Below are positions 14,490 through 59,311 of a DNA stretch of 64,000 bases, in pieces. The stretch's first letter is position 1. Each line of letters opens with the position of its first letter. The notes beneath the pieces are model-generated. The model made no database searches and was not told the DNA's origin. It saw only the letters and a program-made list of their open reading frames with translations. The position numbers were made by a program, and so were the translations under genes. The DNA is from Arthrobacter sp. (GTDB lineage: Bacteria > Actinomycetota > Actinomycetes > Actinomycetales > Micrococcaceae), in the NCBI GenBank assembly GCA_026393275.1, contig JAPLAM010000010.1:1-64000 (forward strand), given 5' to 3'.

Positions 14490-15494
14490 ATGAAAGAGCA
14501 CACGCCGCGTCAAGGGCCACGGCCCATCAAGGAGAGACGCTCCCGCAGGGCGCGCCGCCGGGTCCTGCTGGGGGCGTGTACTGCGGTCCTGGCCGTGGCG
14601 TTGGCGGCCACCGTTTACACCTCGGCCGAGGCCCGCTCAGCAGCGGGGCGCCCGACGACGTCGAGCACGACGGCGTCGACCGCAGCCGCCCCGGCCCCGA
14701 CGTCGACCGCAGCCGTGGCGCCCGCCCCGACCGCGACGCTGGCCCCCACGGCGACCCCGGCCGCGACCCCGGCCGCCGCCCCGACGCCGGCGCCCGCTGC
14801 GGGAGGCGTCGGCCCGGCCCTGGACGCCGAGCTGAACGCCATCATCGACGCCAATGGCGGCTACCAGATCGGCGTGTCCCTGATCGACCTGGCGGACGGC
14901 ACTGTGCACGACTACGGCGTCCAGCAGCCGTTCGAGGCGGCCAGCACCGCCAAGGTCCTGGCTGCCGCGGCCTTCTACCACCTGGTCGAATCGGGCGGCG
15001 CGTCCCTCAACGAGCCGATGGGGGCCTGGACCGCCGGGTTCCAGCTCAAGGAGATGATCCAGGACAGCGACAACGATTCCTGGTCCCTGATCATGGACGC
15101 CGTCGGCCACCAGCAGCTCAGCGACTACGCGGCGTCGATCGGGGTCAACTACAGCCCGGAATCCAACACGCTGACGCCCGCCGAGATGGCCCGGGTCATG
15201 GCCGCGCTCTACTCGGGAAAGCTGCTCGATAAGGACGACACCGCGGAGCTGTTGTCCTATATGCAGAACACCAACTATGAATCCCTCATCCCCGAGGCCG
15301 CCCCCGCAGACGTCGAGGTCTACCACAAATACGGGTTGCTGGACGGGGAGCTGCACGACGCCGGAATCCTCACAAAGAACGGCAGCGCCTACGCCCTCGT
15401 CATCTACACCAAGGGCGACAGCGACGGCGACATCCCGCAACGGACCGACGTCATCCACCAGCTCACCCGCGCCGTCACCGACGCCGTCTTCTAG
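14490..15494 (+). CDS. Secreted serine hydrolase, class A beta-lactamase-like fold
   Basis: N-terminal TM anchor, Thr/Pro/Ala linker, AASTAK (SxxK) and HKYG motifs. Confidence 0.85.
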   Translation: MKEHTPRQGPRPIKERRSRRARRRVLLGACTAVLAVALAATVYTSAEARSAAGRPTTSSTTASTAAAPAPTSTAAVAPAPTATLAPTATPAATPAAAPTPAPAAGGVGPALDAELNAIIDANGGYQIGVSLIDLADGTVHDYGVQQPFEAASTAKVLAAAAFYHLVESGGASLNEPMGAWTAGFQLKEMIQDSDNDSWSLIMDAVGHQQLSDYAASIGVNYSPESNTLTPAEMARVMAALYSGKLLDKDDTAELLSYMQNTNYESLIPEAAPADVEVYHKYGLLDGELHDAGILTKNGSAYALVIYTKGDSDGDIPQRTDVIHQLTRAVTDAVF

Positions 15495-17747: not shown

Positions 17748-18872
17748 TCAGACCCGGGCGTCTGCCCTGCCGGCGGCGGATACGGAAGCGCGTCCGTCCG
17801 CTGCCTGGTGGAGGAGGTCCTCGGCCAGGGCGGCCCACTGGGGCCGGAAGGAATAGAGGCAGCCGAGCCGTAGCCGGGCCGCATCGGCGTAGGCATCGAA
17901 GCGTGCCGGGGTGACCCGCAGTTCCTCGGCGGCCGCGATGACCTGGCGGCGTGCGCCCCGGTACCGCTCGGCTGTCAGGCGCCGTTGACGCAGGCGCAGT
18001 TCAAGGTGGACAGCCAGGTTTGCGAGGTCGGCGGCGGCCTCCGCCAGCCCGGCCTCGTCAAAGTCCAGCAAGCCCAGGGGAGCATCGGGCGCTGTCGCGA
18101 AAATCTGCTTGTCATGGAGGTCCCCGTGGGACCACACCAGCGGATCAGGGCGGGTCCGCAGCATCTGCTCTGCGATCCGCCCTGCGGCTGAACTTACCCC
18201 GTCCTGCTGGGCCCGGGCCGCCGGTACATCCTGGGCGTGCAGCAACCACCGGTCCACCATGCGTTGCAGGTTTTCGAGTTCGACGGCGGCCGTGCGGGGT
18301 GCCAGCGCCGCCAGCGACGAACGGAACGCGGCAGTGCCGGCCAGGGACTGCTGACGGACCCAACCGCGGGACCATTTTTGCCAGATGGCTTCGAACTCGT
18401 CGTCGCTGACCGCGGGGTCGTTTCCCAGCTCGAACAGCGGGCGGCCGGGCAGGGCTGTGATGAGGAGGCAGCCCCGGGTGTACGAAACGACCTCAGGGCT
18501 AAGGAAGTCCCCTGCAGCCAGGAACGCGTACGTCCGGGTGTGCCGGTCCGCGGCTTCGTCGGACTGCCGGGGCCGGAAGATCTTGAAATAGCGGTCGCCG
18601 GCCCGGACCACGGCCCGCTTGTGGGCCCGGTGCACCACTACCTCGCCCAGCGGTTCCACCTGGGCCAGGGCGGGCAGGCGCCGGTCGCTGCCCTGAGGGA
18701 GCAGCTCCAGCGCTCCGGCCCGGAAATGCGCGGCCCGGACGCCGGCCCGTCCGGGCGCCGCAAGTTCCATGCTGTAGTCCCCCGCGGTGGGTTCGGGCCA
18801 CGCCCGCCGGACCAGCCATTGCGCTCCTTCCGCGTCCTGGACGGAGAGCGGGACGGGCGGGTGCCAGCTCAT
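17748..18872 (-). CDS. APH-fold phosphotransferase (paralogue A)
   Basis: MSWHPPVPLSVQDAEG N-terminus; YFKIFRP and LVWSHGDLHDKQI...LGLLDFDEA kinase motifs. Confidence 0.85.
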   Translation of the reverse strand: MSWHPPVPLSVQDAEGAQWLVRRAWPEPTAGDYSMELAAPGRAGVRAAHFRAGALELLPQGSDRRLPALAQVEPLGEVVVHRAHKRAVVRAGDRYFKIFRPRQSDEAADRHTRTYAFLAAGDFLSPEVVSYTRGCLLITALPGRPLFELGNDPAVSDDEFEAIWQKWSRGWVRQQSLAGTAAFRSSLAALAPRTAAVELENLQRMVDRWLLHAQDVPAARAQQDGVSSAAGRIAEQMLRTRPDPLVWSHGDLHDKQIFATAPDAPLGLLDFDEAGLAEAAADLANLAVHLELRLRQRRLTAERYRGARRQVIAAAEELRVTPARFDAYADAARLRLGCLYSFRPQWAALAEDLLHQAADGRASVSAAGRADARV

Positions 18873-19978
18873 GTCATCAGCTCCTCGGCGCGGCGGACCG
18901 GCGGAGGCGAGGCGCGTTCCTCAAGCGCGGCGAGCGCCAGGGACAAGCGGCCCGGCAGCGGAGAACAGGCCAGACGCAGCCAGACGGCGTCGGAATACGC
19001 ACGAAACCTGTCCGGACTGACCTCCAGCCGGTCAGCGGCGGCCACTACGTGCCGGTGGGCCGTGCGGTAACGTGCCGGAGTCAGGCGGTTTTGGCGTACC
19101 AGAAACTCCAGATGGACATCCAGATTGGCCAGATCGAGGGCGGCCTCGGCCCGGGCCGTGTCGTCGAAATCGAGCAGTCCGAGGGCGGACGCGCCGTCGA
19201 TGGCGATAATCTGCTTGTCGTGGAGGTCCCCGTGGGCCCACACCAGCGGATCCGGCACGGTCCCGAGCAGTTCCTCCGCCACATACCCGGCCCATGCGCA
19301 TAACGCGTCGCGTGCCGACGACGCTTCCGGCAGGTCCCCGTAGTGGCGCAACCACCGGTTCACCCACCGCCGCAAATCCGCTGCTTCGACGTCCGGCGAG
19401 TGGACCGGCAGGGCGGCCAGGGCGCTGAGCCGGTCGGGCCCGTGAAAGGCGCCCACCTGGGCGGTCCAGGCCAGCGACCAGTGCTCCCACAGCAGGGCAA
19501 ACGCCGCCGCACTGACGGTGGCGTGGTCCTTCCCCAACTCGCCCAGGGTCCGTCCGTGGATGGGACTGAAAACGATGACATCCGTGGAGCTCCGCGTGAC
19601 CCTGGGCGCCCGGAGGGGGCCGCTGCCCAACAGGATCTCCGTTTGTGAGCAACGTTCGGCGGGCACCGTCGCCTCGCCGGGGCGGAAGATCTTGATGTAA
19701 CACCCCTCTGCCCGCACCACGGCGCGCGTGTGGGGCCGGTGGGCGATGATTTCGCCATGGCGCGCTTCGACGACGAGCGCGGGCAGTCCGGGGTCGTCCC
19801 GGGGGACCAACTCAAAGTGCCCGGACCGGAGGTGGGCTGCCCTGACGCCGGGCTCTCCGGTCGAGGTGACCTCCAGTTTGTAGTCCCCCGGGGTCCTGTC
19901 GGGCCATGCCCGGCGGACTTGCCAGGTACGCCCGGAATCGTCCACCGCCGACTTCGGGAGCGGCGGAAGCCAGCTCAT
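18869..19978 (-). CDS. APH-fold phosphotransferase (paralogue B)
   Basis: MSWLPPLPKSAVDDSG; YIKIFRP; LVWAHGDLHDKQI...LGLLDFDDT; 4-bp overlap with the next gene. Confidence 0.85.
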   Translation of the reverse strand: MSWLPPLPKSAVDDSGRTWQVRRAWPDRTPGDYKLEVTSTGEPGVRAAHLRSGHFELVPRDDPGLPALVVEARHGEIIAHRPHTRAVVRAEGCYIKIFRPGEATVPAERCSQTEILLGSGPLRAPRVTRSSTDVIVFSPIHGRTLGELGKDHATVSAAAFALLWEHWSLAWTAQVGAFHGPDRLSALAALPVHSPDVEAADLRRWVNRWLRHYGDLPEASSARDALCAWAGYVAEELLGTVPDPLVWAHGDLHDKQIIAIDGASALGLLDFDDTARAEAALDLANLDVHLEFLVRQNRLTPARYRTAHRHVVAAADRLEVSPDRFRAYSDAVWLRLACSPLPGRLSLALAALEERASPPPVRRAEELMT

Positions 19979-21240
19979 GGGACCAGCTCCCAGGCCCGGT
20001 CGAGGTGCCGGGACATGTCCGCGGCCCAATCAGGGGACCGGTCCCGGAATGGGTCCACACTGCCGGCGAACAGCCGGAGCGCCGCCCAGGCATCCGTCGC
20101 ACCGGGCACAAACCGGCCGCCCGCCAGGACGTAACCCTCCAGCAGGGACGCTGAGCGCGGCCGGCCCGCGGCGTTCCCCCGCCAGCGGCTCATTTCCTCC
20201 ACAGCGGCGAAAGAGCCCAGATCGGCCTCCGGAACTCCCGCCCGGGCACGGTCGAAGTCGATCAGCCGTACCTCGGATCCGCTGACCAGCACCTGGTCAG
20301 CGGAGAAGTCCCCATGGACGACGACGGCGGGCCCGGCGTCGTCGTCAGCGTCTTCCAAACTACGGCGGATCCGGTCCGCCACTCTTGCGGCGCGCACTTC
20401 CAGTGCGGGAACGAGCGCCGTAACCATGGCGCAGGTCACCGCCAGTTGGCGCTCCACGAGGGGCCCGGACCCGGCGGCGAGGCCGCCGCCTTCCGCGGCC
20501 GGAATGCTGTGCAGCCGGGCGAGGGCCTCGCCGGCCCGGCGTGCACTGACCGGATCGTCGCCGGCCGCCAGATCGTGGTCGCCCCACAGGGGGGTCGCGC
20601 TGGTGCCGTGCTCCCGGCAATCGGCACCGCCGAGCATGGGAAGGACGGGAACTCCGTAATGACGCAAACGCTGGCGGAAGCGGTGCGCGTTCTCGGCGGC
20701 GGGACGGGCCGCGGTCTTGATCACGATCGGCGTAGCCTGGGATTGCTCCAGCAGGACAACGCGCCGCTCGGGCTTGTAGCGCAGCACCGTGGCGCCGCTG
20801 CTGAGGAGTCCGGGCCCGGGGCGCGGCACGGCGCCGAGCTCTTCCAACCCCGGGCCGGCGAGCCAGCGGAGGTTGTCACCCAGTGCCCAGTCGTCCTCGA
20901 TGCCACCGACGGCGATCACGGCGTCGGTGTGGGCCGGGGCAGCAGGCAGGAGACGCAGGGCCCCGCCGCGTCGCTCCGACTTCCGGGCACGTCCGTCCAG
21001 CTTGATGTTGCCGCGCGTCGTGAGGGCCCAGCAGTACTCTTCGTTGCCGTCGAGGGTGCGGCGGAAGGCAACGAGGGCAGACGTGCCGGGCTTATACCGG
21101 ACCCGGGTAATCCGGACCGCTTCCCCCAGGGCTTCGGAGAGCAGGTCGTCGTCGAGCACCACGGCCAGGCCGGGCAGCCGGTCGTCCCGGCCGGCGAGCG
21201 AGAAGTCCGCCTCGCGCAAAGGCATGCGCACGGTGTTCAA
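19975..21240 (-). CDS. APH-fold phosphotransferase (divergent third member)
   Basis: VVVHGDFSADQVLVSGSEVRLIDFDRARAG; N-terminal RYKPGTSALVAFRRT. Confidence 0.82.
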   Translation of the reverse strand: MNTVRMPLREADFSLAGRDDRLPGLAVVLDDDLLSEALGEAVRITRVRYKPGTSALVAFRRTLDGNEEYCWALTTRGNIKLDGRARKSERRGGALRLLPAAPAHTDAVIAVGGIEDDWALGDNLRWLAGPGLEELGAVPRPGPGLLSSGATVLRYKPERRVVLLEQSQATPIVIKTAARPAAENAHRFRQRLRHYGVPVLPMLGGADCREHGTSATPLWGDHDLAAGDDPVSARRAGEALARLHSIPAAEGGGLAAGSGPLVERQLAVTCAMVTALVPALEVRAARVADRIRRSLEDADDDAGPAVVVHGDFSADQVLVSGSEVRLIDFDRARAGVPEADLGSFAAVEEMSRWRGNAAGRPRSASLLEGYVLAGGRFVPGATDAWAALRLFAGSVDPFRDRSPDWAADMSRHLDRAWELVP

Positions 21241-23162
21241 GTGGGCACCTCCACATCGTGGAGCGCTACCCGCTGTTCGTCCTCCTCCGCTTCGTTCTCC
21301 GCTACGCGAGCGGTGGGCGGGTCACCCAACCACCTGCTGAACCGGCTGTCGGGATCCTGCAACAGCTCCAGCGGACGGCCCTCTTCGAGGATGCGGCCGT
21401 CCTCGAGCCAGATGACCCGGTCGGCGAGGCGCGCGGCGAACGCATCGTGGGTGATCGTGATCGAGGTCCGCCCCCGGGTCAGGATCTCCAGCGCATCCAG
21501 GATCGATTCGCGGGAGGCAGGATCCAATCCTGCGGTGGCCTCGTCCAGGATGACGATCGGCGCCTGCCGGAGGATGGCGCGGGCGATCGCGATCCGCTGC
21601 CGCTGCCCGCCGGAAAGATCTTTGGCTGCTTCCCCCAGGACCGTTTCGTAGCCGTCAGGAAGGGCACGGATAAAATCGTCCGCCTGGGCCAGGGCGGCCG
21701 CGTGTTCGATGTCCTCATCGGAGGCGTCGAGGCGACCGAACCTGATGTTCTCCCGCACGGAGTTTCCGAACAGGACGGAGTCCTGGAGCAGGATGGAAAC
21801 GTGGGAGCGCACCGAGGCGATCTGGAGCTCCTTCAGGTCCTCTCCTCCCACCCGGACCGTGCCGGTGGTGGGGTCAATCATGCGCAGGATGAGGCTGGCC
21901 AGGGTGGATTTGCCGGCACCGGACGGGCCGATGATGGCCAGGCGCTCCCCGGCCGGAATCGTCAGGTTGATCCCGTGCAACACGGTGGTCCCCTCGCCGT
22001 GCCCGGCGGAGACGTTGTCGAACACGACGTCGGGGTTCCGGCTTTCCAGGGGGCGGGCGTCGGGAAGCTCGGGCAGATCCGTCTCGGCCTCGAGCAGATC
22101 CGCCACGCGCTCGCCGGACGCCGTGGCCTGCGCAATCCGGCTGGTTTGCTTGGCCAGATCCTTCAGCGGCTTCATTCCGGTCTTCAGGTACGTGAGGAAG
22201 ACGACCAGATCCCCGGGGGTGATCGAGTGGTCCAGCACGCGCCAGCCTCCACCAGCCAGGACGATGGCCGTGGCGAAGCCGATCAGCACGTCGGTGCGCC
22301 GTTCAAGGCCGGCGGCCAGCCGGAGGGCGACGACTCCCGTCCCAAGTGTGGCCGCGTTGCTCTTCCGGAAGCTGGAGCTGATGGTGTCCTCAAGACCGTA
22401 GGCCTGGACTTCACGCATGGCCCCGAGGGTCTGGGCGGCCGTGGTTGCCAAGGCTCCCTCACCCTTGCGGGATCTGCCCGCTGCCGTTGTAATCGAGCCC
22501 GAACTCCGGCGCGACAGGAGGGCGAAAATGCCGGACGCCAGGAAGACGACGAGCGCCAGCATCGGGTCAAGCCACAGCATGATGACGGTCATGGCCACGA
22601 GCGTGACGGCGTTGCCCAGCATCGGAAGACCGGCGGTCACGGCGACGTCCTGCAGGCGTGAGACGTCGCTGACGAGCCGCTGGACGGTGTCTCCGGAGGA
22701 CGCCCGCGTGTGGTGCCGCATGGACAGGCCCTGGACGTGGCGGAACGTGCGGGCACGGAGGTCTGCCGCGACCCGGGAACCGACGAGGGCGAAGGAGATA
22801 GCGGACCAGTAGTTGGCGATGGCGCGCAGGATGCTGATGACCACGATCGCGGCGCCGCACAGCAGCAGCGTCTGCGTGTTGGCTTCGAGGCTGGGCCCCG
22901 GCCTCTTGATGGTCGCGCCGAGCGAGCGTGTCACGGCATCGATCACCAGTTTCACGGGCCATGGCTCCAGTAGGCGGAACAGGACGTCGGCGGCAAGGGC
23001 CGCGAAGCCGATGATCATCCGCAACCGGTGCTCGCGCAGATGCGGGCCGACGCACCTCAGGGTCCTTCGGAGCCCGGAGACTGGTTTGTGAGCCCGGGCG
23101 CGCCGCATCCACCGCCACAGTCCCTGCGGGGTTCGGACCGGTACGTGCCTCGGCGCGGTCAT
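21237..23162 (-). CDS. Type I ABC exporter, fused permease/ATPase
   Basis: TM region then GPSGAGKSTLASLILRMIDP, LSGGQRQRIAIARAI, IVILDEATAGLD; ATG at 23162. Confidence 0.93.
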   Translation of the reverse strand: MTAPRHVPVRTPQGLWRWMRRARAHKPVSGLRRTLRCVGPHLREHRLRMIIGFAALAADVLFRLLEPWPVKLVIDAVTRSLGATIKRPGPSLEANTQTLLLCGAAIVVISILRAIANYWSAISFALVGSRVAADLRARTFRHVQGLSMRHHTRASSGDTVQRLVSDVSRLQDVAVTAGLPMLGNAVTLVAMTVIMLWLDPMLALVVFLASGIFALLSRRSSGSITTAAGRSRKGEGALATTAAQTLGAMREVQAYGLEDTISSSFRKSNAATLGTGVVALRLAAGLERRTDVLIGFATAIVLAGGGWRVLDHSITPGDLVVFLTYLKTGMKPLKDLAKQTSRIAQATASGERVADLLEAETDLPELPDARPLESRNPDVVFDNVSAGHGEGTTVLHGINLTIPAGERLAIIGPSGAGKSTLASLILRMIDPTTGTVRVGGEDLKELQIASVRSHVSILLQDSVLFGNSVRENIRFGRLDASDEDIEHAAALAQADDFIRALPDGYETVLGEAAKDLSGGQRQRIAIARAILRQAPIVILDEATAGLDPASRESILDALEILTRGRTSITITHDAFAARLADRVIWLEDGRILEEGRPLELLQDPDSRFSRWLGDPPTARVAENEAEEDEQRVALHDVEVPT

Positions 23163-24331
23163 GGCCAGGCCGCCTGCCGCGGGACTGGGAGCGCCGCCGT
23201 GATGCGGGAGAGGACCCCGTTCCAACTGAAGCGCTTTTCGGCCTCTTCGCGGGCCCGGCTGCCAAGATCTTCGCCCAGGGCAGGATCGTCGGCCATCCGG
23301 GTCAGTGCCGCAGCGAGGGCCGCGGGCTCCGAGGGCGGGACCAATATGCCCGTGCGTCCGTCGTCCAGGATGGAGGGGATCTGGCCCACGGAGCTCGCGA
23401 TGATCGGCATCGCGGCGGCCATGTATTCGTAGACTTTCAGCGGCGAAAAATAGTCGTCCCGTCCCTCTTCTTCCGCGGGATACGGCGCGGCGGCGGCGTC
23501 GCACTCGTGCAGCAGTGCCGGCACGTCCGCCGGCCGCACCGCGCCGGTGAACTCCGCCTCAACCCGCAGCGAGCCGGCGAGCTGTTCCAGTTCCATCCGG
23601 CCCGGGCCGTCGCCGATGATCCGTACCGCCCACCGTCGGCCGGGCCCGGGGGCGGTGGAATTGGCCAGCGCGACGGCCTGCAGCAGGTCCGGCACCCCGT
23701 GCCAGGGCTTCAACGTTCCGACAAAGGCCACGGTGAGGTGGTCGGGGTTCTTCCGGCCGGGGCGGCGCGCCGTGATGCGTTCGGTGTTGACGCCGTTCGG
23801 CGCCAAGATCGTCCGGGCGCCGGGCACCCGGGCTTGCACCCAGCGGACCACCGGCTCCGAAACGCAGGCCACGACGTCGGCGGTCCCGGCATTGCGCCGG
23901 AGGATCGCTTCGGCTTTCCTGACGTCCAGCAGTTCGCGGTACTTCTGTTGTTCCTCGATCAGCGGGGCGTTCACTTCCAGTACCGAGGGGATGTTCAGGA
24001 CGCGGGCCAGCACCGAGAGCGCCGGGCTGAACAGCGAATAGCGTTCGTACACCAAGCCGCAGCCCTGACGCAGCACCTGGTCAACGAGGGCCAGTGCGGC
24101 CTCCTGGAGGGCCTGTTCACGGGCCGGCCCGGGGACGCTGTCCGGCTGGACTTCGACGACGTCGAGGTCGTCGAGGTCATCGGGGCGGTCGGTTCCCAGC
24201 CGGGCGCAGTAGACCGTGACGTTGGCGCCTGCCGCCCGCCAGGCCCGGACGATTTCCTGGACATGCACGGATGAGCCCTTGGTGCCGAAGACGGGCACCC
24301 CGGGGTCCGCGCAGATGTAGGCCACGTGCAT
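23159..24331 (-). CDS. Glycosyltransferase family 4-like
   Basis: GTKGSSVHVQEIVRAWRAAG; VKVYEYMAAAMPIIAS-type GT4 E-x7-E region. Confidence 0.9.
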   Translation of the reverse strand: MHVAYICADPGVPVFGTKGSSVHVQEIVRAWRAAGANVTVYCARLGTDRPDDLDDLDVVEVQPDSVPGPAREQALQEAALALVDQVLRQGCGLVYERYSLFSPALSVLARVLNIPSVLEVNAPLIEEQQKYRELLDVRKAEAILRRNAGTADVVACVSEPVVRWVQARVPGARTILAPNGVNTERITARRPGRKNPDHLTVAFVGTLKPWHGVPDLLQAVALANSTAPGPGRRWAVRIIGDGPGRMELEQLAGSLRVEAEFTGAVRPADVPALLHECDAAAAPYPAEEEGRDDYFSPLKVYEYMAAAMPIIASSVGQIPSILDDGRTGILVPPSEPAALAAALTRMADDPALGEDLGSRAREEAEKRFSWNGVLSRITAALPVPRQAAWP

Positions 24332-25593
24332 CAGGCGACCCTCCTTTCCGCGAGGGCGAGGGACCGCAGCAGTTCGGCCTGGCGTCGGACGTCGAAGTCC
24401 TGCTCGATCAGTGCGCGCGCGTTGCGGGTCAGCGCGACCCGGTCGGTGCCGGGGGAGCTCATCTTCTGGATTGCGCGGGCCAGGAAATGCGGGTTAGCCG
24501 GCCGCGCCAGGATCCCGGTGGAACCGTTCCGGACCACTTCCGGGATTCCGGTGACGGCCGTGCTGATGCAGGGAACTCCGGCGGCCATTGCTTCCAGGAG
24601 GACCGTGGGCATGCCGTCCGCGTTGCCGTCCGCCGCGACGACACAGGGCGCGATGAAGATGTCGGACGCATCGAGCAGCTCATGGACCTGGTCCTGGGTC
24701 TGGGCTCCGATCAGCCGGACGTGGTCGCACAGGCCGAGGCGCTCGATGGTCGCCTCCAGCTCGTCGGCCAGCACACCGGTTCCCGCGATGCGCAGGTCCA
24801 GGCGGAAGCCCTCCTCCAGGAGTTCCGCGGCTGCCGGCAGCAGATACTGGAATCCCTTCTTCTCCACCAGGCGCCCGACGGCGGCGATCCGCATCGTGCT
24901 GCCGAGCGGCCGTGGATCGCGGTACGGAAAGCGGTCCAGGTCCAAGCCGTTCCGCACCAAATGGAGCCGGGCCGTCGCGGCCGGGAAACGATGGCGCAGG
25001 TAGCGCAGGTTGAAGTCGCTGATCGTCACGGCGTGGTGGGCTTGTTCGAGCTTGATCCGGAGGTCCTCGCTGCTGACCGAGTCGTGGAAGATGTCGACGG
25101 CGTGGGCGGTGAAAGAGTAGGGGATACCCGTGATGGCCGAAGCCAGTCGGGCAACGCTCGTGGCTCCCGAGGCGAAGTGGACGTGCATGTGCCGGATATT
25201 CCGGTGCTGCAGGGCAACGGCCAGGTTGATGGCACGGACGGCGTCGTCGGGCGCGGCAGCGGAGAGTTCGGCGAAATTCCTGCCCAGCGCCCCCGTGAGC
25301 CCGACCGCTCCGGCCGCATGGAAGCACTCCCAGAGGTCGGACGTCTTCAACGGCCGGTCAATGTAGGTCACGGGCGCCTGGACCCTTGCGAGTTCGGAGT
25401 GGAACCGGGGGTCATTGGGCGGCAGCAGGGAGAAGATCTCGATCCGGTCTCCTGCGGCTTCCCGGGCCAGGATCTCGGACACGATGAAGGTTTCGGAGAA
25501 ACGCGGGTACATCTTGAGGACGTAGGCAGTCCCCGGCTCAGACGGCGACACGGCCGGCGCCTTCTTTCGGACTGAGTGCAGGCTCGTTGGCAT
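24331..25593 (-). CDS. Glycosyltransferase family 4-like
   Basis: YVLKMYPRFSETFIVSEILAREAAG; GMPTVLLEAMAAGVPCISTAVTGIPE; start uncertain (overlaps upstream gene). Confidence 0.88.
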   Translation of the reverse strand: MPTSLHSVRKKAPAVSPSEPGTAYVLKMYPRFSETFIVSEILAREAAGDRIEIFSLLPPNDPRFHSELARVQAPVTYIDRPLKTSDLWECFHAAGAVGLTGALGRNFAELSAAAPDDAVRAINLAVALQHRNIRHMHVHFASGATSVARLASAITGIPYSFTAHAVDIFHDSVSSEDLRIKLEQAHHAVTISDFNLRYLRHRFPAATARLHLVRNGLDLDRFPYRDPRPLGSTMRIAAVGRLVEKKGFQYLLPAAAELLEEGFRLDLRIAGTGVLADELEATIERLGLCDHVRLIGAQTQDQVHELLDASDIFIAPCVVAADGNADGMPTVLLEAMAAGVPCISTAVTGIPEVVRNGSTGILARPANPHFLARAIQKMSSPGTDRVALTRNARALIEQDFDVRRQAELLRSLALAERRVA

Positions 25594-26752
25594 TCGGACG
25601 GAACAGCGGCTGGAGCAACTCGGCCGCCAGCTGCGGAACACGGATCAGCCCGTCGAGGACCGCCCGACGGCGATCCACCGTGGTGCCGATCCTCGCCGCG
25701 AGCCAGCCGCCGAAGATGTCGGGGGTCAGCGTGCCGATGTCCTGGTGTTCCAGGTAGCCGGCGTTGGCCAGCGACGTGGCCCGGATCCGCTGCTCGGCCC
25801 GTGCCTGGGTGCGGGGCACGATCAGGGCGGGGACGTTCGTGCTCATGATCTCGCACACCGTGTTGTAGCCGCCCATCGAAACGACGGCGGACGCGTTGCG
25901 GAGATGATAGATGAGGTCGTCCACCGTGGCGACAACCTTGACGCCGGGGCCAGCCTGCTGACGCAAATCGTTCAGCTGCTCAATTGGCATCTCGGGGCCC
26001 GCCACGATCAGGTGTCCCAGACCCTCCGGCACGTGGGCGGCGACCGCCACTCTTGCCAAGGCGTGGCCGTCTGAGCCGCCGCCGACCGTCGTCAGGCAGT
26101 AAGGGCCGGGCATGCAACTGGTTCCGGAGCCGGGAGGCCGTCCCTCGGCGAGATAACCGGTGTAGCGGATGAGCTTCCGAAGGGAGAAAGGAATTTCGCC
26201 GGCTTCCACGGGGTCGTGGACGGCGGGATCACCGTAGATCCAGATCTCATCGAACAAGGCCTTGACCAGCCGCGGTCCGCCAAAGCGGGCCCACTCGCTG
26301 AAGGCTACGTCGGGGGAATCCAGGACTTCACGGAGCCCCAGCACCACCCGCACCGGGGCGCCCGAGCGGGCATGCCGAAGCGCGGATTCAAGTTCGCGGT
26401 GCACCCCGGTGGCATGGCGGTCCACAATCACCAGGTGCGGGCGGAACCCGGCCAGGACCGCTTTGAGCAGCCGTGCCCGCATGGACACGAGTTCGTGCAT
26501 CGGCATCGCGAGGTTTCGCGGCAGATAGCCTTCCGGGCTTTTTCCCACCCCGGGAAGCAGCACCCAGTCCCAGCCGTCCGGCGCCTGGAACGCCGGCGCA
26601 TGGGCGGTGCCGGTGATGAGGATGCCGGTGACCGGACGGCCGGTCAGCCCCGGAAGTTGATTGTTCAGGGCGTGCGCCAGCGCCAGATTCCGGCGCACAT
26701 GCCCCAGGCCGACTGAATCGTGTGAGTAGAGCACTATTCGCATCGGATCCAT
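25538..26752 (-). CDS. Glycosyltransferase, GT28/MurG-like
   Basis: MRIVLYSHDSVGLGHVRRNLALAHAL; VVSMGGYNTVCEIMSTNVPALIVPRT. Confidence 0.85.
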   Translation of the reverse strand: MDPMRIVLYSHDSVGLGHVRRNLALAHALNNQLPGLTGRPVTGILITGTAHAPAFQAPDGWDWVLLPGVGKSPEGYLPRNLAMPMHELVSMRARLLKAVLAGFRPHLVIVDRHATGVHRELESALRHARSGAPVRVVLGLREVLDSPDVAFSEWARFGGPRLVKALFDEIWIYGDPAVHDPVEAGEIPFSLRKLIRYTGYLAEGRPPGSGTSCMPGPYCLTTVGGGSDGHALARVAVAAHVPEGLGHLIVAGPEMPIEQLNDLRQQAGPGVKVVATVDDLIYHLRNASAVVSMGGYNTVCEIMSTNVPALIVPRTQARAEQRIRATSLANAGYLEHQDIGTLTPDIFGGWLAARIGTTVDRRRAVLDGLIRVPQLAAELLQPLFRPNANEPALSPKEGAGRVAV

Positions 26753-26838
26753 TGCGGTCCTCCAAACACACGGCCCGCAACTCAGGGGTATTCCCTGTCA
26801 GCGGTGGTTGATGTCAAATACCAGCCTGCACCGCAAGC

Positions 26839-26878
26839 GTGAGAAGGGGATGAGGGGAAGATTAAGGACTTCTCATGA
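26839..26878 (-). promoter_or_regulatory. Candidate response-regulator binding region upstream of the glycosyltransferase operon
   Basis: Minus strand reads TCATGAGAAGTCCTTAATCTTCCCCTCATCCCCTTCTCACGCT with repeated CCCCTCAT / CCCCTTCTCA, located between the HK and GT genes. Confidence 0.35.
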
Positions 26879-26901
26879 ACTGCGCGCGGGCTGCCGCGAG
26901 T

Positions 26902-28383
26902 TCAGAGCTTCAGGCCAACGGTCTGCAGGGGGACCCGGATCAGGAAGCGTGATCCCTGGCCCTCGGCTGATTCCACGGTGACAGTACCGCCGTGGGCTTC
27001 GGCGATGGCTGCGACGATCGCCAGGCCGAGGCCGGATCCTTCCTCTCCGCGGCCCGGACGGGCCCGGCCGAAGCGCTCAAAGATCCGCTGCTGGTCCTTG
27101 ACCGCGATGCCGGAGCCGGTGTCCCGCACCCACAACACCAGCGTGTCCGATTCGGCCACCGGGGTGCCGTCCGGCGCCGTCGGACCTTCGATCCTGCTGC
27201 CCAGGGCGATCGTGGAGGAGCGCCCGGTGTATTTGACGGCGTTGGCGGCCAGCTGGACGAGGGCCTGGGTGAGGCGCTGGGGGTCGGCCTCCACCACGTA
27301 GTCGGCGCTTTCATCGATCTGCCAGCGACGGTCCGCGAGGACACGGATTTTCTCCATTACCTGTTGGAGGAATTCGGGGATCCGGATGGGCGCTTTCCTG
27401 ACGAAGTCGGGGTGGCCGGCATTGGCGAGCACCAGCAGGTCATCCACCAGACGCTGCATCCGGTCCAGCTCTTCGAGCAGCACCTCCCTCGTTGCGATCA
27501 CATCGGCGGGGTCGTCGACGGACACGAGTTCCAGGTGTCCCCGGAGGATCGTGAGGGGGGTCCGCAGCTCGTGGCCGGCGTCGTCCAGGAACTGTTGCTG
27601 CTGCCGCGCACCCTCATCGAGCCGTTCCAGCATGGTGTTGAAAGTCTTGGTCAGGAGCGTCACGTCGTCCTCGCCGTCGCGCTCTTCCACCCGTTGGGTG
27701 AGATCCTCATGGCTGACCACGCGGGTGGCTTCGCGCAGGCGGCGGAGCGGATCCAGCAGACGGCCGGCCACCAGGCCGCCGATCAGGGCGGCGGCGAGCA
27801 GCGTACCGGCGGCTACCAAGGAGTATGTCTGGACCGACGCGAGATTGTGGTCCCGTTGGTCAGAGGCGTCCCGGCCCAGCAACAGATACGTCCCGGTGCT
27901 TTGAGCCGTCGCATCCTTCACCGGCAGGACGACGGTCCTCAGCGGGCGGCCGCCGGCGTTGAACTCGTCGAAGGCGGCGGCCGAGGGGTTAGGGAGCCGG
28001 GTGACGGCCGGTTGCAGGGCTTGGTCCAGGAGGGGCTCATCGGGGTTCCCCTCCTTGATCCACGCAATGCGCCCGTCCACGATTGCTGCCATGACTTCGT
28101 TGCTGCGGGGTGCGATGTCCTCGGCGGAATCCTGGAGCTTGTTGCTGTAGGAAAGGCTGCTGGCATCGCTGTTGGTCTGGACCAGCTTGACCAGCGAATT
28201 GCCCTTGTCCAGGATTGCCTGGTCCACCCGGGTGTCAGAGTCCTGGAACTGGACAATGAACGCGATCAGTCCCGCACTCACCAGCCCTGCGAGCATCATG
28301 CCCAGCATGGCGGCCACCACCCGGAACCGCACCGAGTGGAACTTCGCGCTCCAGCCGGACGGGTCCGGGTCCGCGGGCGTCAC
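26902..28383 (-). CDS. Two-component sensor histidine kinase
   Basis: HAMP region, DDAGHELRTPLTILRGHLEL H-box, AANAVKYT N-box, RPGRGEEGSGLGLAIV G-box. Confidence 0.95.
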   Translation of the reverse strand: MTPADPDPSGWSAKFHSVRFRVVAAMLGMMLAGLVSAGLIAFIVQFQDSDTRVDQAILDKGNSLVKLVQTNSDASSLSYSNKLQDSAEDIAPRSNEVMAAIVDGRIAWIKEGNPDEPLLDQALQPAVTRLPNPSAAAFDEFNAGGRPLRTVVLPVKDATAQSTGTYLLLGRDASDQRDHNLASVQTYSLVAAGTLLAAALIGGLVAGRLLDPLRRLREATRVVSHEDLTQRVEERDGEDDVTLLTKTFNTMLERLDEGARQQQQFLDDAGHELRTPLTILRGHLELVSVDDPADVIATREVLLEELDRMQRLVDDLLVLANAGHPDFVRKAPIRIPEFLQQVMEKIRVLADRRWQIDESADYVVEADPQRLTQALVQLAANAVKYTGRSSTIALGSRIEGPTAPDGTPVAESDTLVLWVRDTGSGIAVKDQQRIFERFGRARPGRGEEGSGLGLAIVAAIAEAHGGTVTVESAEGQGSRFLIRVPLQTVGLKL

Positions 28384-29060
28384 GATTCCCCTTCCCTGGC
28401 CAGCCGGTAGCCGGCACCGCGTGTTGTGACGATGTGGTCCGCGCCGATCTTTTGCCGCAGCTGGCGCACGTAGACGTCCACCACGTTGGAGGTCCCGTCA
28501 AAGTCGTAGCCCCAAACATGGCTGAGAAGTTGTTGCCGGCTCAGGACCTGCCCGGGATGGAGCAGGAACATTTCGACCAGCGCGAACTCGCGGGCGGAGA
28601 GTTCGACCGTCCTGTCCCCGACGCTTACCGTGCGGGTGTGGAGGTTCAGTTCCAGGATGCCGTAGCGGATGATGTGGTCCGCGGGTGGGTCGTTGTTTTC
28701 GCCCGGGCGGACCCGGCGCCTGATGCGGGCCACGAGCTCCTCGAAGCGGAACGGCTTGGTCATGTAGTCGTCCGCGCCGCCGTCCAGGCCCGCGACGGTG
28801 TCCGCGGCGGAGTCCCGCGCGGTGAGGAAGATGACCGGAAGGTCCACGCCGCTCTTGCGGAGCGCGGTCAGGACGGTGAAACCGTCGAGGCGGGGGAGCC
28901 CGACGTCCAGGAGCAGGAGATCGAACTGGCCGCTGGAGGCGTAGTCCACCGCTGTCACGCCATCGGTCACGACAGTGGGGGCGAAGCCGGCAGCCCGAAG
29001 GCCCTTCTCGATGAACCGGGAGATTCGTTCTTCGTCTTCGGCGATGAGAATGCGGATCAC
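28380..29060 (-). CDS. OmpR/PhoB-type response regulator
   Basis: VIRILIAEDEERISRFIEKGL receiver; LLLDVGLPRLDG; winged-helix ...VDVYVRQLRQKIG; GTG start at 29060. Confidence 0.94.
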   Translation of the reverse strand: MIRILIAEDEERISRFIEKGLRAAGFAPTVVTDGVTAVDYASSGQFDLLLLDVGLPRLDGFTVLTALRKSGVDLPVIFLTARDSAADTVAGLDGGADDYMTKPFRFEELVARIRRRVRPGENNDPPADHIIRYGILELNLHTRTVSVGDRTVELSAREFALVEMFLLHPGQVLSRQQLLSHVWGYDFDGTSNVVDVYVRQLRQKIGADHIVTTRGAGYRLAREGES

Positions 29061-29259: not shown

Positions 29260-30171
29260 TTACCGCCGGAACAGTGCCCCGGTGACCGCCGTCGTCAGCT
29301 GGTGGATCACGTCGATCCGGCCCGGGCTGTCCGCGTCCTCCTCGCCCCAGGTGTAGATCGCCACCGCATAGGCAGCATCACCGGAGCGCAGGACCGCGGC
29401 GTCGTGGACGTAGCCCTGCACCACCCCGTACTTGTGGTTCACCGTGATGCCCTTCGGCACGGCGGCGGGGATCAGCTCCTCGTCATTGGTGTCCTGCATG
29501 TAGCCCAGCAGCTCCTCCGTGTGCTCCGGGTTGAGCAGCTGCCCGCCGTAGAGCTGCTTGAGTAGCAGCGCCATCGCGGCCGGGGTCAGGAGGTTCTCTT
29601 CCGGGTCGTAGCCGATGCCGATCGACGCCGCGTACTCGATCAGCCGCGGGTAGCCGATGTCCTGCATCAGCAGCAGCCAGGAATCGTCGCTGCTGGTGTT
29701 GACCATGGCCTTGAGCTGGAACGCGGCGTCGAAGCTGCCCAGTTCCGCGTCCAGCGACTTCTCGCCGGTCTCCACCAGATGGTAGTAGGCGGCCGCCGTG
29801 ATGATCTTGGCCGTGCTGGCCGCCTTGTACTCGGCAACGTCGCCGTACGCCTGCGGCTCCCCGCCGCGCATGTCCTGGACGACGACGCCGATCCGGTAGT
29901 CGGGATTCTCGGCCAGGATCCGCCGCATTTCGGCGGCCAAGTCGACGGCGGCGGCCGGCGCGGCGGCGGCGCTGCGGCTGGGGAGGGGATGCAACTGGCT
30001 GTTCAGGGTGGCCCAGAAGTCCGTCTTGGGGTCGGGCCCGGTGCGCAGCGCTCCGGCCGTGACGGCCGCGGTCAGCAGGAGCACCGTTGCGGCCCCCACT
30101 GCCAGCAGCCGGCGTCGCGCCGTCACACGGGCGCTCGCCGGGGCCGGATTCCGGGGTCCGGGCGTGTTCAT
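29260..30171 (-). CDS. Secreted serine hydrolase, paralogue of 14490..15494
   Basis: KAASTAKIITAAAYYHLVETGEKSLD, LIEYAASIGIGYDPEENLLTPAAMA, NHKYGVVQGYVHDA. Confidence 0.87.
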   Translation of the reverse strand: MNTPGPRNPAPASARVTARRRLLAVGAATVLLLTAAVTAGALRTGPDPKTDFWATLNSQLHPLPSRSAAAAPAAAVDLAAEMRRILAENPDYRIGVVVQDMRGGEPQAYGDVAEYKAASTAKIITAAAYYHLVETGEKSLDAELGSFDAAFQLKAMVNTSSDDSWLLLMQDIGYPRLIEYAASIGIGYDPEENLLTPAAMALLLKQLYGGQLLNPEHTEELLGYMQDTNDEELIPAAVPKGITVNHKYGVVQGYVHDAAVLRSGDAAYAVAIYTWGEEDADSPGRIDVIHQLTTAVTGALFRR

Positions 30172-41765: not shown

Positions 41766-44700
41766 ATGTGGATCACGTCGGACGTTGAACTGCCCATGGA
41801 GCTGGTGGAGGCCCACTCTGCCGGCGATTTGGTGCTATTCGTTGGGGCCGGCGCATCCAGAAATCCTCCTTCCAGTCTCCCGCTGTTCGATGAGCTGGCT
41901 GAACAAATCGGAGTTATGGCTCGGCGGCCCTACCCCGGTAATGGCGTCGCCATAGACCGTTACCTTGGCGAGCTACTCGACGGGTTCGACGTCCACAAAC
42001 ATGTGAAGAGGCTAATCGACAGAACCGAGTCGATCCCCAACGAGAGCCACAAAGCTCTGGTCCGCCTTGCTGCCGCATCGGAAACGACCCGAATCATCAC
42101 CACTAACTTTGATGATCATCTGCAAACGGCTGCCGACGATGCCGCAACAGATCTCGGCGACATCTATTTCTCTCCCGCACTCCCAGTAGGCCGGAACTTC
42201 GAGGGGCTAGTCCACCTCCACGGCTCAATCAATCGGCCGGAACTTGAACTCATCCTCACGGACCATGACTTCGGGCGGGCTTATCTGACGGATGCATGGG
42301 CTACGCGATTCCTGCGCGAAGTTTTTGACCACTTTGTTGTTCTGTTTGTTGGTTTCAGCCACAACGACCCGATCATGAACTACCTCGGGATGGGGCTTCC
42401 TTCGTCCACCCGACGGTTCATACTCACTGACCTAGCCGAGGACCCCCGTTGGAAGAGGCTCGGAATCACGCCGGTCGCCTACCCCAGTGCGGACAATCAC
42501 GCCGCGGCCGCGCGCGCTTTAGATGAATGGGCGAAGCGCGCATCAATGGGCCGGTTGGACCATAGCGCGCGCATCCGGGACATCGTCCAAGGTGGTCCGC
42601 CCAAGAACCCTGTCGAGATGGACTATTTGTCCAACATTCTCGAAGACCCCAACGGGGCACAGGTATTCGCGGAATCCGCATCTGGTGTGAGCTGGCTACC
42701 ATGGCTGGAGACCCGGGAGGTCTTCTCCTCTATTTTCAATACCAACATGACCAGGGCGCCTGATAGCGCGCTCAGGGAGGCGAGCACTGTGCTGGCGCAG
42801 TGGTTCTGCGAAAACTACATCAGCGACGTGGCGCACCAAGCCGCTGCCCTCAATCTCGTTCAGCGCACCGGCCAACAGCTCTCTCCGCAGCTGGCGTCCG
42901 CCGTGCCTTGGGCGATACGAACGCTTGCATCGAAAGATCACGCCGCCGCGCGACGATGGCAGGTTCTGCTGACCACATCGACCGCAGGATACAGCGCCCC
43001 ACCGTCCCTTGATCGGTATCTTTGGGCCCATGGTGCAGATACCGAGAAGCCTGATCTGCTTCCCCTGCGCCTGGGTCTTCGCCCCTATTTGAACCTGCGG
43101 CCTGACTACTGGGGTGCCGCCTTCAGCGGCGATTCTGGAGTCGAGGGCGTCCCGACAGCCGAGCTCGCTTGGCCCATCACCAAATACGCAGCAAACGAAT
43201 ACTGGCAGAGACTCAAGAAATGGGATGTAGCTCTCGACCACCGGATCTGCTCATTGTTCGAGAATTCGCTTCTCACTGCGCACGAGCTCCTCGACGCGTG
43301 GGCGCCGCAGAGGGGAGGAAGCGGGACGCTTTCATTTGGACGTTCTGCCATCGAACCACATCCGCAAGACAAGTTCAGGGAAGTCATCGATGTACTCATC
43401 GATGGATTGCGCGACTGCGGCCAAGAACTCGTCACCTCGGATCCGCGTATCGTCGACCGCTGGTGGAGCATCGACTACCCGATCTTTCGCCGACTTGCCG
43501 TGCACACGCTTGGCTCCGCTCCCTTGCTCGACTCAACGGAGAGAATCCAATGGTTGCTCGACCACGATCTAATCTTCGACTTCCACACTAAGCACGAGAC
43601 ATTCGCCGTGCTGGGCGCGGCTGTCCAAGCAGGTAGCCCCAAAGTGAAGTGTGCGTTGCTTGAGAGAATTGAACAGGGCCCTGGGTTCGACGACGAAGTC
43701 GATCCGAGACACACGGAGTACATGAAGTACAACATTCTGACGTGGCTTACGACGGCCGACACGTCCTGGACAGAGGCCGCTGCAGCTCTTGGTGAATTGC
43801 AGAAGGCTAACCGCGATTTTGCACCACGCCCGCACCCCGATTTCGACCATTGGTCCGAGTCCGGGGTCTGGGGCGGCACCCCGCCGGCGTCCGGTGAGGA
43901 GTTCAGGCAAATGATCCGTGACGAAGGGGCTGACGGCGCTGTGAGGTGGCTCCTCGACCAGGACTACTCAGAACGGGACTTTGACCAACCGACATGGGAT
44001 GATGCGCTCGGGCTGCTCCGCTCCGTAGCCGAGTCAGAGCCTTCCGTCGCTCTCGATCTCTGGAGTTCCCCGGCCCTCACAGCGGACGACCGCGTCGTGG
44101 ACATGCGATGCGCCCTAATTGATGGATGGTCCAAGACGATTCTCAGCGAGGTCGCACTGGAGGTGGTTGAGGTGGTCGCCAACCTCGCAGCGGTCGGGGA
44201 TGCAGCCCGACCGGTCTCAGACTTTCTCCTTGCCCAACTCGATATTCAAGCCGACAACGCAGACTCTGAGATTACTGTCCGGCTACGGGCAATTGCACAG
44301 CGGCTCTGGAAATCTCACAGCGACTCTTTCACTCATGACGACGAGTTTAATTCAGTGAGCCTCTCGCTGAATTCGTGGCCTGGAAGGCTTGCCTCGTACT
44401 GGGTCCGGGAAATTGGGCGCCGCTGGAAGTCCGATCCTGACCACTGGTCCGGCCTCAACGAGCACGAACGCGACGCGTTGCTACCGCTATTGCAAGGGTC
44501 CGGCCCGGTGTTGGACGCTACGCGTCCTGCCTTGGCGGGAGAAGTATTCTTCCTGTTCGCAGCAGACCCCGATTTCACGGTGGAAAATATTTTCCCCTTG
44601 TTCGCCACCCCGGGGCTGCAAGGGCAATCCTGGGAGCCGTACCTCTACCACCCACGGTGGAATAACAAGTTCCTTGAACGGGGCTTTCTCGGTCTAATTG

Positions 44701-45305
44701 TTCAGGCTTACTCGCGGGTTGATGAGTTTTCAGGCAGCACTCTTTCCTCACAATACTGGGGGCTGTTGGCGTCGGTTCTCACTTTCTCCGACATTACCGG
44801 GGAACTGCGCATCGAATTCCTTGACCAGCTAGTGCTAGATCACGACGGGCAGCACGTTGCTCACTTCATCGATCACCTCTTCGTCCTGCTCGAAGGTCAG
44901 GACACCGACCAAGCGGTCCAGTCGTGGGACGCGTGGATCGGTTCCTACGTCCAGAGGCGCTTCGATGGGCAACCCAGGCGGCCGGATCCTGAGGAACTTG
45001 AGGCCTGGGCGGACCTCGTACCGCTCTTGGGCGACCGGGTCCCGGAGGGTGTCAACGTTGTGCTGACGCGAGGAGTCGGGTTCCGTTCAATATTCCGATG
45101 GGACGGAGTCTCCGTTGCCAACGTCCTCGCACATGCCCAACCGCTGGCGCGCTACCTCATTCACAGACTTGAAAACTCATCCGAACTCGGCGATGCGGCC
45201 AAGAGCGATGTATCGGAAGCAATCAAGGCCGTCGTGGCACAACTAGATTCGAACTTGCGAGATCGTTTGGTCAAAGCGGCAGCGCACCACGGAATATTTC
45301 TCTAA
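41766..45305 (+). CDS. Large SIR2-domain protein, candidate defence-associated sirtuin
   Basis: 1179 aa; LVLFVGAGASRNPPSSLPLFDELAEQIG, IITTNFDDHL, LVHLHGSI, FVGFSHNDPIMNYL; long C-terminal region. Confidence 0.88.
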   Translation: MWITSDVELPMELVEAHSAGDLVLFVGAGASRNPPSSLPLFDELAEQIGVMARRPYPGNGVAIDRYLGELLDGFDVHKHVKRLIDRTESIPNESHKALVRLAAASETTRIITTNFDDHLQTAADDAATDLGDIYFSPALPVGRNFEGLVHLHGSINRPELELILTDHDFGRAYLTDAWATRFLREVFDHFVVLFVGFSHNDPIMNYLGMGLPSSTRRFILTDLAEDPRWKRLGITPVAYPSADNHAAAARALDEWAKRASMGRLDHSARIRDIVQGGPPKNPVEMDYLSNILEDPNGAQVFAESASGVSWLPWLETREVFSSIFNTNMTRAPDSALREASTVLAQWFCENYISDVAHQAAALNLVQRTGQQLSPQLASAVPWAIRTLASKDHAAARRWQVLLTTSTAGYSAPPSLDRYLWAHGADTEKPDLLPLRLGLRPYLNLRPDYWGAAFSGDSGVEGVPTAELAWPITKYAANEYWQRLKKWDVALDHRICSLFENSLLTAHELLDAWAPQRGGSGTLSFGRSAIEPHPQDKFREVIDVLIDGLRDCGQELVTSDPRIVDRWWSIDYPIFRRLAVHTLGSAPLLDSTERIQWLLDHDLIFDFHTKHETFAVLGAAVQAGSPKVKCALLERIEQGPGFDDEVDPRHTEYMKYNILTWLTTADTSWTEAAAALGELQKANRDFAPRPHPDFDHWSESGVWGGTPPASGEEFRQMIRDEGADGAVRWLLDQDYSERDFDQPTWDDALGLLRSVAESEPSVALDLWSSPALTADDRVVDMRCALIDGWSKTILSEVALEVVEVVANLAAVGDAARPVSDFLLAQLDIQADNADSEITVRLRAIAQRLWKSHSDSFTHDDEFNSVSLSLNSWPGRLASYWVREIGRRWKSDPDHWSGLNEHERDALLPLLQGSGPVLDATRPALAGEVFFLFAADPDFTVENIFPLFATPGLQGQSWEPYLYHPRWNNKFLERGFLGLIVQAYSRVDEFSGSTLSSQYWGLLASVLTFSDITGELRIEFLDQLVLDHDGQHVAHFIDHLFVLLEGQDTDQAVQSWDAWIGSYVQRRFDGQPRRPDPEELEAWADLVPLLGDRVPEGVNVVLTRGVGFRSIFRWDGVSVANVLAHAQPLARYLIHRLENSSELGDAAKSDVSEAIKAVVAQLDSNLRDRLVKAAAHHGIFL

Positions 45306-47891: not shown

Positions 47892-47928
47892 GAAGCGCCC
47901 AATGGAGGTCGCTGCAGAGAGGATTTCG

Positions 47929-48870
47929 ATGTCACTTGCACTTGCCGCGCTGTCACATGCTCCGTCGTTTGGAAACGTTGACCCGGGCGGGACGATTTTT
48001 GCCGAGATCAACGAAGCGATTGCCGATGTACGGTCCTTCGTCGAGGACTTCAACCCGGACGTCACCGTTATCTTCGGCCCCGATCACTTCAACGGCGTCT
48101 TGTACTCGATGATGCCTCCGTTCGCTATCGGTGCGCAGGCGGTCGGCGTGGGGGACTACGGGACGTCGGAAGGTCCGCTCCCGGTCGACTCGGAAGTGGC
48201 ACGTGAACTGCATGCGCTGACCATCGCGCAGGGGATCGACATCGCCCGTTCGGAACGGTTGGAGGTCGATCACGGCGTGATGCAGCCGCTGGAGTTCCTC
48301 TTCGGTGCGGGATTCACCCGTCCGTTCGTGCCTATTTTCGTAAATGCGCTTGGCAAGCCCCTCACTCCCATGTCTCGTATTCGGATGATGGGTGAAGCCA
48401 TAGGCCGGGCGGCCCAGCAGCTGGACAAGCGCGTGCTCCTGGTGGCTTCCGGAGGTTTGTCGCATAACCCCCCGATCCCCGTGTATGACGGTTCGCCTGA
48501 GCCGATTCAGCAGCGCCTTGTTTCCTATTCGCCGTCGAAGGCGGACCGGGCGGCCCGCGAGGGCAAGATCATTGAGGGCATCCAAGCCATTGCCGATGGC
48601 CGCGCCTCGAGTGCGCCCCTTAACACTGAATGGGACCAGAAGCTGCTTGACGTGTTCCGTTCGGGGTCCCTGACCGAAGTCGACAGCTGGGACAACGACG
48701 AGTTCATCGCCGAAGGTGGCAGTGCCGCTCACGAGATGCGTTCCTGGATTGCAGCCTTCAGCGCCCTGTCCACCGTGGGCGACTACAACATGGTGGTCGA
48801 CCGATACTGGCCCGTCCGGACCTGGGGCGCCGGGTTCGGCATCACAGCGGCCATCCCCAACGCAGTATGA
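47929..48870 (+). CDS. mhpB: 3-carboxyethylcatechol 2,3-dioxygenase-like (LigB-type extradiol dioxygenase)
   Basis: ALSHAPSFGNVDPGG; VIFGPDHFNGVLYSMMPPFAIG; VDHGVMQPLEFLFG; LLVASGGLSHNPPIP; collinear with MhpB. Confidence 0.92.
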   Translation: MSLALAALSHAPSFGNVDPGGTIFAEINEAIADVRSFVEDFNPDVTVIFGPDHFNGVLYSMMPPFAIGAQAVGVGDYGTSEGPLPVDSEVARELHALTIAQGIDIARSERLEVDHGVMQPLEFLFGAGFTRPFVPIFVNALGKPLTPMSRIRMMGEAIGRAAQQLDKRVLLVASGGLSHNPPIPVYDGSPEPIQQRLVSYSPSKADRAAREGKIIEGIQAIADGRASSAPLNTEWDQKLLDVFRSGSLTEVDSWDNDEFIAEGGSAAHEMRSWIAAFSALSTVGDYNMVVDRYWPVRTWGAGFGITAAIPNAV

Positions 48871-49727: not shown

Positions 49728-49732
49728 AGCAG

Positions 49733-50527: not shown

Positions 50528-50972
50528 GATCACCGTCGAAACGCGCGTGGCCATCGAGCAGCTCATCTCGGAACTGTTGTGGAGGCTCGACCACGGCAAA
50601 GCTGACACGACGTGGGAGCTGTACACGCAAGACGCAGTCTCAACCGGACCACTCGGGAACATGGATGGCCGGGACGCAATCAAAGCCTGGGGCGAACGTC
50701 GCGCCAAGATTACGGGCGTCGTTGGACGACACATCATTGGTGGCATTCGGCTGGAGTGGGTGGGTGAAGAGCTCCACGGTTGGACGCAGTACATGACGTT
50801 CCGGGATTCGTCGGAGAACCCGTTGATGCCCGCCAGCGTAGGTGAATTCCGCGAGGTCTACCGGCAAGTCGACGGGGACTGGAAGATCGCACGGCGCGAG
50901 ATCGCGCCCATCTTCGGTGGGCTGAATGCCGCCGCACATGCGAAGCGGCTCGCAGAAAGCACAGCCGAATGA
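50520..50972 (+). CDS. NTF2/SnoaL-like protein
   Basis: AIEQLISELLWRLDHGKADTTWELYTQDAV; GEFREVYRQVDGDWKIARREIAPIFGG. Confidence 0.85.
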   Translation: MREITVETRVAIEQLISELLWRLDHGKADTTWELYTQDAVSTGPLGNMDGRDAIKAWGERRAKITGVVGRHIIGGIRLEWVGEELHGWTQYMTFRDSSENPLMPASVGEFREVYRQVDGDWKIARREIAPIFGGLNAAAHAKRLAESTAE

Positions 50973-53339: not shown

Positions 53340-53391
53340 TAAGGCCACGAACGCATAATTGATTGACAAGCGCATAATCAATAAATACTGT
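53333..53391 (+). promoter_or_regulatory. Promoter region with three 19-bp-spaced CGCATAAT repeats
   Basis: CGCATAAT at 53333, 53352 and 53371; TTGACA at 53363; inverted repeat ATTGATT/AATCAAT at 53358-53382. Confidence 0.5.
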
Positions 53392-53463
53392 TGCTGCAAC
53401 TCGTCTGTACAGGCGGTAGGCGGGAAGGCCCGCGCAGCGTTCACTCAAGGGAGAGCGAATCTC

Positions 53464-59293: not shown

Positions 59294-59311
59294 GCGGCTG
59301 CCGTGCCGTCC

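Follow-up and report, generated by a model that had tools for sequence, protein, structure and literature searches.

A conserved glycosyltransferase-exporter-kinase cassette of Arthrobacter and other bacteria that probably builds and exports a saccharide

Here, we report that three glycosyltransferase genes (GTa, GTb and GTc), a single-chain ABC exporter gene (ABC) and two kinase genes (K1 and K2) constitute, as judged by sequence comparison, a conserved but patchily distributed cassette in the order GTa-GTb-GTc-ABC-K1-K2, with a two-component system, a third kinase (K3), a nucleotide-sugar dehydrogenase and an outer-membrane barrel as variable partners. We consider it probable that the proteins of this cassette assemble a saccharide in the cytoplasm for export. 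Gene content and order, co-evolution of the genes, conservation of the catalytic residues, a maltokinase-like fold in K1, the barrel and dehydrogenase partners and a repeat upstream of GTa were all computed directly. The cassette would give a function to many genes whose annotation goes no further than "aminoglycoside phosphotransferase" or "ABC transporter", and the APH-type kinases of such cassettes should not be taken for resistance genes.

The window, the whole 64,000-nucleotide stretch of Arthrobacter DNA that was analysed, carries on its minus strand, between 17748 and 29060, a run of nine co-oriented genes from a response regulator to three kinases, as originally noted. All nine were identified with Pfam and NCBIfam, in the order RR, HK, GTa, GTb, GTc, ABC exporter, K1, K2, K3:

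28380-29060, minus strand: RR, OmpR-family response regulator (Response_reg and Trans_reg_C).
26902-28383, minus strand: HK, HAMP/HisKA/HATPase sensor kinase (Pfam), with a GTGA 4-bp overlap with RR.
26834-26866, minus strand: three direct repeats of 11-bp period, TTAATC-N5-CTCATC-N5-CTCA, a candidate RR binding site, unique in the window and kept in position in the same-orientation Arthrobacter loci compared.
25538-26752, minus strand: GTa, GT28/MurG-like glycosyltransferase, core cassette gene 1 (PF04101; weak MurG match in the PDB; profile A1).
24331-25551, minus strand: GTb, GT4 glycosyltransferase with a likely GTG start at 25551 (PF00534, PF13692; EpsE-like, below cut-off).
23159-24331, minus strand: GTc, GT4 glycosyltransferase (PF13692, PF13439).
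21237-23162, minus strand: ABC, MsbA-type exporter of 641 aa with membrane and ATPase domains on a single chain (PF00664 and PF00005; best NCBIfam match MsbA-related, below cut-off).
19975-21240, minus strand: K1, APH-fold kinase of maltokinase-like architecture, starting at TTG 21240 or ATG 21228 (PF01636; AlphaFold model; top PDB match mycobacterial maltokinase).
18869-19978, minus strand: K2, APH-fold kinase (predicted structure with APH-type PDB matches; conserved catalytic residues).
17748-18872, minus strand: K3, tandem duplicate of K2 (PF01636).

Most junctions are 4-bp overlaps, again as noted: GTGA at RR/HK, ATGA at GTc/ABC, K1/K2 and K2/K3, and TTGA at ABC/K1, where an alternative ATG for K1 lies 9 bp downstream. 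GTa and GTb overlap by about 14 bp (GTG...TGA), and GTb and GTc by 1 bp (TGATG). The longest open reading frame of the exporter (755 aa, start 23504) is called too long; translation from the ATG at 23162 yields the 641-aa protein and the ATGA overlap. The sole true gap among the nine genes, 149 bp between HK and GTa, contains the conserved direct repeat. Two Beta-lactamase2 family proteins flank the region (14490-15494 and 29260-30171), and both kinds likewise flank the close Arthrobacter cassettes L011 and L013. Elsewhere in the window, 41766-45305 encodes a protein of 1179 aa that contains a SIR2-like domain (PF13289) and may serve in anti-phage defence, and the stretch 47902-62605, of lower GC (about 0.59-0.64 vs 0.66-0.71 before 40 kb), holds a LigB-type ring-opening dioxygenase, FAD monooxygenases, a hydrolase, NMT1-type uptake genes and a TetR regulator and has the look of an acquired cluster for the catabolism of aromatic compounds.

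Do the genes of the cassette belong together? A profile of GTa alone (A1), run over named genomes, recovered 80 loci, of which we judged the 73 with at least 7 kb of sequence downstream of GTa. GTb and the exporter follow GTa in all 73, a kinase in 71 and GTc in 68; GTb, GTc, exporter and kinase are all present in 66/73. This order recurs in nearly every relative and across phyla, which rules out chance neighbours and bears out the original prediction of one functional unit. Pairwise divergences correlate for all cassette gene pairs (r = 0.76-0.91, values to which species relatedness, not removed, contributes), as expected for a unit inherited together. With the exporter as query, the cassette was found in 7/36 further genomes within the genus and in two more families of the order, so its distribution is patchy, and a strong GTa match in 17 of 396 sampled genomes of the phylum indicates an accessory trait. 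Hosts belong to Actinomycetota (including Arthrobacter, Rothia, Kocuria, Microbacterium, Brevibacterium and Cryobacterium), Chloroflexota, Planctomycetota, Gemmatimonadota, Nitrospirota, Cyanobacteria and Pseudomonadota (with Alpha-, Beta- and Gammaproteobacteria represented). MAGs account for several of these hosts.

GTa-like genes also occur in other arrangements in Pseudomonadota. Most of the ten loci checked in this phylum resemble a GTa-paralog cluster, and two (L123 and L132) represent a third variant, so that the tally of 24/299 is not to be read as cassette prevalence. The matches examined on Sinorhizobium, Azospirillum and Ruegeria plasmids proved to be this different, paralogous cluster, which has no linked exporter and kinases. 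On the Ruegeria and Azospirillum plasmids (L100 8953-15496, L102 8953-15234) it consists of GTa, a GT4, a glycosyltransferase, a histidine phosphatase, a second glycosyltransferase and a polysaccharide deacetylase, and the Sinorhizobium plasmids (L103, L104) carry related GTa-GT4-GTa clusters. The third arrangement (L123 3538-15731, L132 1385-11818) comprises the exporter, one or more K1-like kinases and two genes each of GTa-like and GTb-like type.

The partners of the core vary from locus to locus. A two-component system is present in 32/73 judged loci, mostly directly adjoining the cassette, either downstream or, in the same or divergent orientation, upstream. A nucleotide-sugar dehydrogenase is present in 16/73, and both in 2/73. 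The window has no cassette-linked dehydrogenase; elsewhere, the same genome has three that score above the cut-off. The Paracoccus cassette has its two kinases fused into a single protein of 740 aa, with a two-component system in divergent orientation adjoining. A sulfotransferase is also present in L098, an epimerase in L081 and a methyltransferase in L089.

Several diderm cassettes have an outer-membrane barrel beside them, and these barrels belong to unrelated families: Alginate_exp in E. coli (L106) and in L076, L091 and L095, OprB in L093, SlipAM-like in L089, and Porin_O_P upstream of the cassette in L084. No outer-membrane barrel was found next to the cassettes of Roseobacter, of Paracoccus and of some planctomycetes. 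The 10-kb E. coli form, GTa-GTb-GTc-ABC-K1-K2-AlgE-dehydrogenase, combines the AlgE-type barrel with the dehydrogenase, and L076, L091 and L095 have the barrel alone; the E. coli form occurs in 18/5426 complete E. coli genomes, plasmid-borne every time and at ≥99% identity. On E. coli plasmids (L106 1547-17225, L107 7034-22713) the cassette adjoins an fdnGHI-type formate dehydrogenase set, and the listed source strains are mostly bovine or food isolates. It is mainly because barrels of several families have been recruited, two of them carbohydrate-type, that we regard the product as an exported saccharide.

What might control the cassette? The repeat in the gap between HK and GTa occurs once in the window, with 0.02 expected, and is equally placed in 9/9 same-orientation Arthrobacter loci compared, while the rest of the gap varies; the repeat matrix was built from those nine sequences, and the count is therefore descriptive. 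In L012 and L024, whose two-component genes are divergent, that place holds a repeat that is related yet not the same, and some cassettes that have no two-component system linked to them (L023, L016) are preceded by weaker look-alikes. Direct repeats of 11-bp period are the usual form of OmpR-family sites. The two-component control that had been proposed is likely for the version in the window, and would be exerted by the neighbouring RR via the candidate site upstream of GTa.

K1 and K2 are probably saccharide kinases. The catalytic motifs HGD(F/L)SxDQ and DFD of K1 and H(R/G)DLHDKQ and DxD of K2 are kept almost everywhere, and the AlphaFold models have mean pLDDT values of 93.3 and 93.6, respectively. 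At its N-terminus, the K1 model has helices and then three antiparallel strands, an arrangement similar to the N-terminal cap reported for both maltokinase and glucosamine kinase (PMC6520443). Its top PDB match is mycobacterial maltokinase, aligned over the full length but with high rmsd and a TM of about 0.5, and N-acetylhexosamine 1-kinase is also among its matches; phosphorylation of a saccharide is probable because of this resemblance to maltokinase. Identity as a glucosamine kinase was rejected, as the actinobacterial signature Q-x(2)-RE-x(2)-YA-x(3)-LP-x-W (PMC6520443) is missing from all 44 K1-set and all 50 K2-set kinases. K2 alone falls just under the Pfam APH cut-off (20.7 vs 23.2 bits), and its predicted structure has an APH fold that matches macrolide and aminoglycoside kinases; K3 is 47% identical to K2. 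Single-sequence PDB searches with K1 and K3 gave nothing meaningful, and profile searches of the PDB returned general APH relatives only. K1 likewise found no match on the plasmids by tblastn although divergent K1 genes are present there, so single-sequence searches miss divergent K1. In four Arthrobacter loci (L020, L022, L027 and L057) K1 is absent and K2 lies directly 3' of the exporter, which offers a natural comparison for the role of K1, and in two loci (L024 and L081) no kinase is linked; the kinases may thus not be essential everywhere.

In our preferred scheme, the three glycosyltransferases would assemble a glycan, in many hosts drawing on UDP-glucuronate-type donors, and K1 and K2 would phosphorylate the saccharide, acting on the starter or on the completed glycan. 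The MsbA-type ABC protein would then carry the saccharide over the inner membrane and, in several diderms, the cassette-encoded beta-barrel would take it across the outer membrane, while in the Arthrobacter-type genome of the window the OmpR-type two-component system would control the cassette through the 11-bp direct repeats. We infer the nature of the product, an exported carbohydrate, the order of the steps and regulation through the adjacent RR; the exact kinase target and the chain length are guesses. The predicted saccharide is phosphorylated and possibly uronate-containing. The original prediction of a small glycoconjugate, made by the glycosyltransferases and released by the exporter, holds in part: an exported glycan is likely, which may be small or a polymer.

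Could the glycan instead be built on a lipid? GTa would then act on undecaprenyl-PP-sugar or diacylglycerol from housekeeping enzymes, GTb and GTc would extend it, the exporter would flip the lipid-linked oligosaccharide in the manner of PglK or MsbA, and the kinases would phosphorylate the glycan head. GTa is MurG-like and the MurG acceptor is lipid-linked, the best family matches of the exporter are MsbA-related and, since the hosts possess housekeeping lipid carriers, the missing initiating enzyme in the cassette is compatible with such a route. However, the Alginate-type and OprB barrels better suit a free hydrophilic chain, and a ligase, polymerase or lipid-modifying gene is never conserved with the cassette, and we regard this alternative as unlikely. 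More doubtful still is a salvage branch, in which the kinases would phosphorylate free sugars for nucleotide-sugar supply to the glycosyltransferases and leave the product untouched. AmgK-type and NahK-type kinases feed nucleotide sugars, and the maltokinase-like K1, with its match to N-acetylhexosamine 1-kinase, would fit such a role, but the neighbourhoods that were annotated and scanned showed no nucleotidyltransferase accompanying the cassette, and the kinases sit after the exporter in fixed order. An antibiotic or modified-peptide cluster, with kinases for peptide modification or for the self-protection originally suggested, is highly improbable and was rejected on phylogenetic breadth and gene content: the kinases are APH-fold, K1 has weak NCBIfam matches to LxmK (8e-11) and Mph, far below cut-offs, and the fold matches of K2 are antibiotic kinases, but the same cassette is spread over many phyla, and in hosts as distant as Arthrobacter, cyanobacteria and E. 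coli (on plasmids) its kinases are catalytically intact, sometimes fused, and have no antibiotic genes near them. The cassette has no aminotransferase, deoxysugar or precursor-peptide gene and its overlapping genes leave no room for one, and its partners include outer-membrane barrels.

How does the cassette compare with known systems? The original view that it is neither an aminoglycoside cluster nor a Wzx/Wzy system agrees with the genes examined: aminocyclitol or aminosugar genes are absent from the cassette, the kinase scores lie far below resistance-family cut-offs, and no Wzx flippase, Wzy polymerase or initiating phosphoglycosyl transferase is found among the cassette genes or the E. 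coli plasmid gene lists. ABC-2 systems (KpsMT, Wzm/Wzt) have a separate permease and ATPase, whereas the cassette exporter joins PF00664 and PF00005 in one chain. Alginate-type, synthase-dependent secretion shares the AlgE-type barrel (Alginate_exp), present in L106, L091, L095 and L076 but not in the monoderm window, and the nucleotide-sugar dehydrogenase of the E. coli version; those systems have a membrane GT2 synthase, whereas the cassette has GT28-like and GT4 enzymes and an ABC exporter in place of the synthase pore. The single-chain membrane-ATPase architecture is shared with MsbA/PglK/HepA/NdvA-type exporters, with best scores MsbA-related and good HepA and glucan-exporter scores, although every score of the cassette exporter is below curated cut-offs. 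Mycobacterial maltokinase and actinobacterial glucosamine kinase share with K1 the HGDF-xxx-Q (in maltokinase, HGDxxxxQ) and DFD loops, and K1 has a similar N-terminal cap; they differ in that the context of K1 is glycosyltransferases and an exporter. In maltokinase, the cap is joined by an intermediate subdomain and by a C-lobe that bears the two loops.

In line with the original proposal of an undescribed system, we found neither a match to a characterised cluster nor a published description of the cassette in the open-access literature; subscription papers could hold one, and the cassette is apparently undescribed. Its nearest functional analogue is the msbA2 operon of S. meliloti (SMb21188-SMb21191), which encodes an acyltransferase, two glycosyltransferases and an MsbA-type exporter, is activated by the OmpR-type regulator ChvI and is a proposed export route for an unknown polysaccharide (PMC3687685, PMC12239276). 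We took the operon at L139 as msbA2 by gene content and order. Like the cassette, it combines glycosyltransferases and an MsbA-type exporter with OmpR-type activation, and its exporter matches the cassette exporter profile; unlike the cassette, it has an acyltransferase, lacks kinases, and its glycosyltransferases match no cassette glycosyltransferase profile. It is an analogue and not a member, and we rejected it as a homologue since its glycosyltransferases are unrelated and the exporter alone is homologous.

Saccharide systems of glycosyltransferases and an MsbA-type exporter are already known; the present cassette stands apart through its conserved kinases and because it pairs an ABC exporter with AlgE-type barrels. 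We tentatively suggest that the cassette could be a further exoglycan route, distinct from the Wzx/Wzy, ABC-2 and synthase routes, in which three soluble glycosyltransferases and two maltokinase/APH-type kinases would yield a phosphorylated glycan with no lipid carrier encoded by the cassette, for export by an MsbA-type protein and, in diderms, AlgE- or OprB-like barrels, in at least seven phyla.
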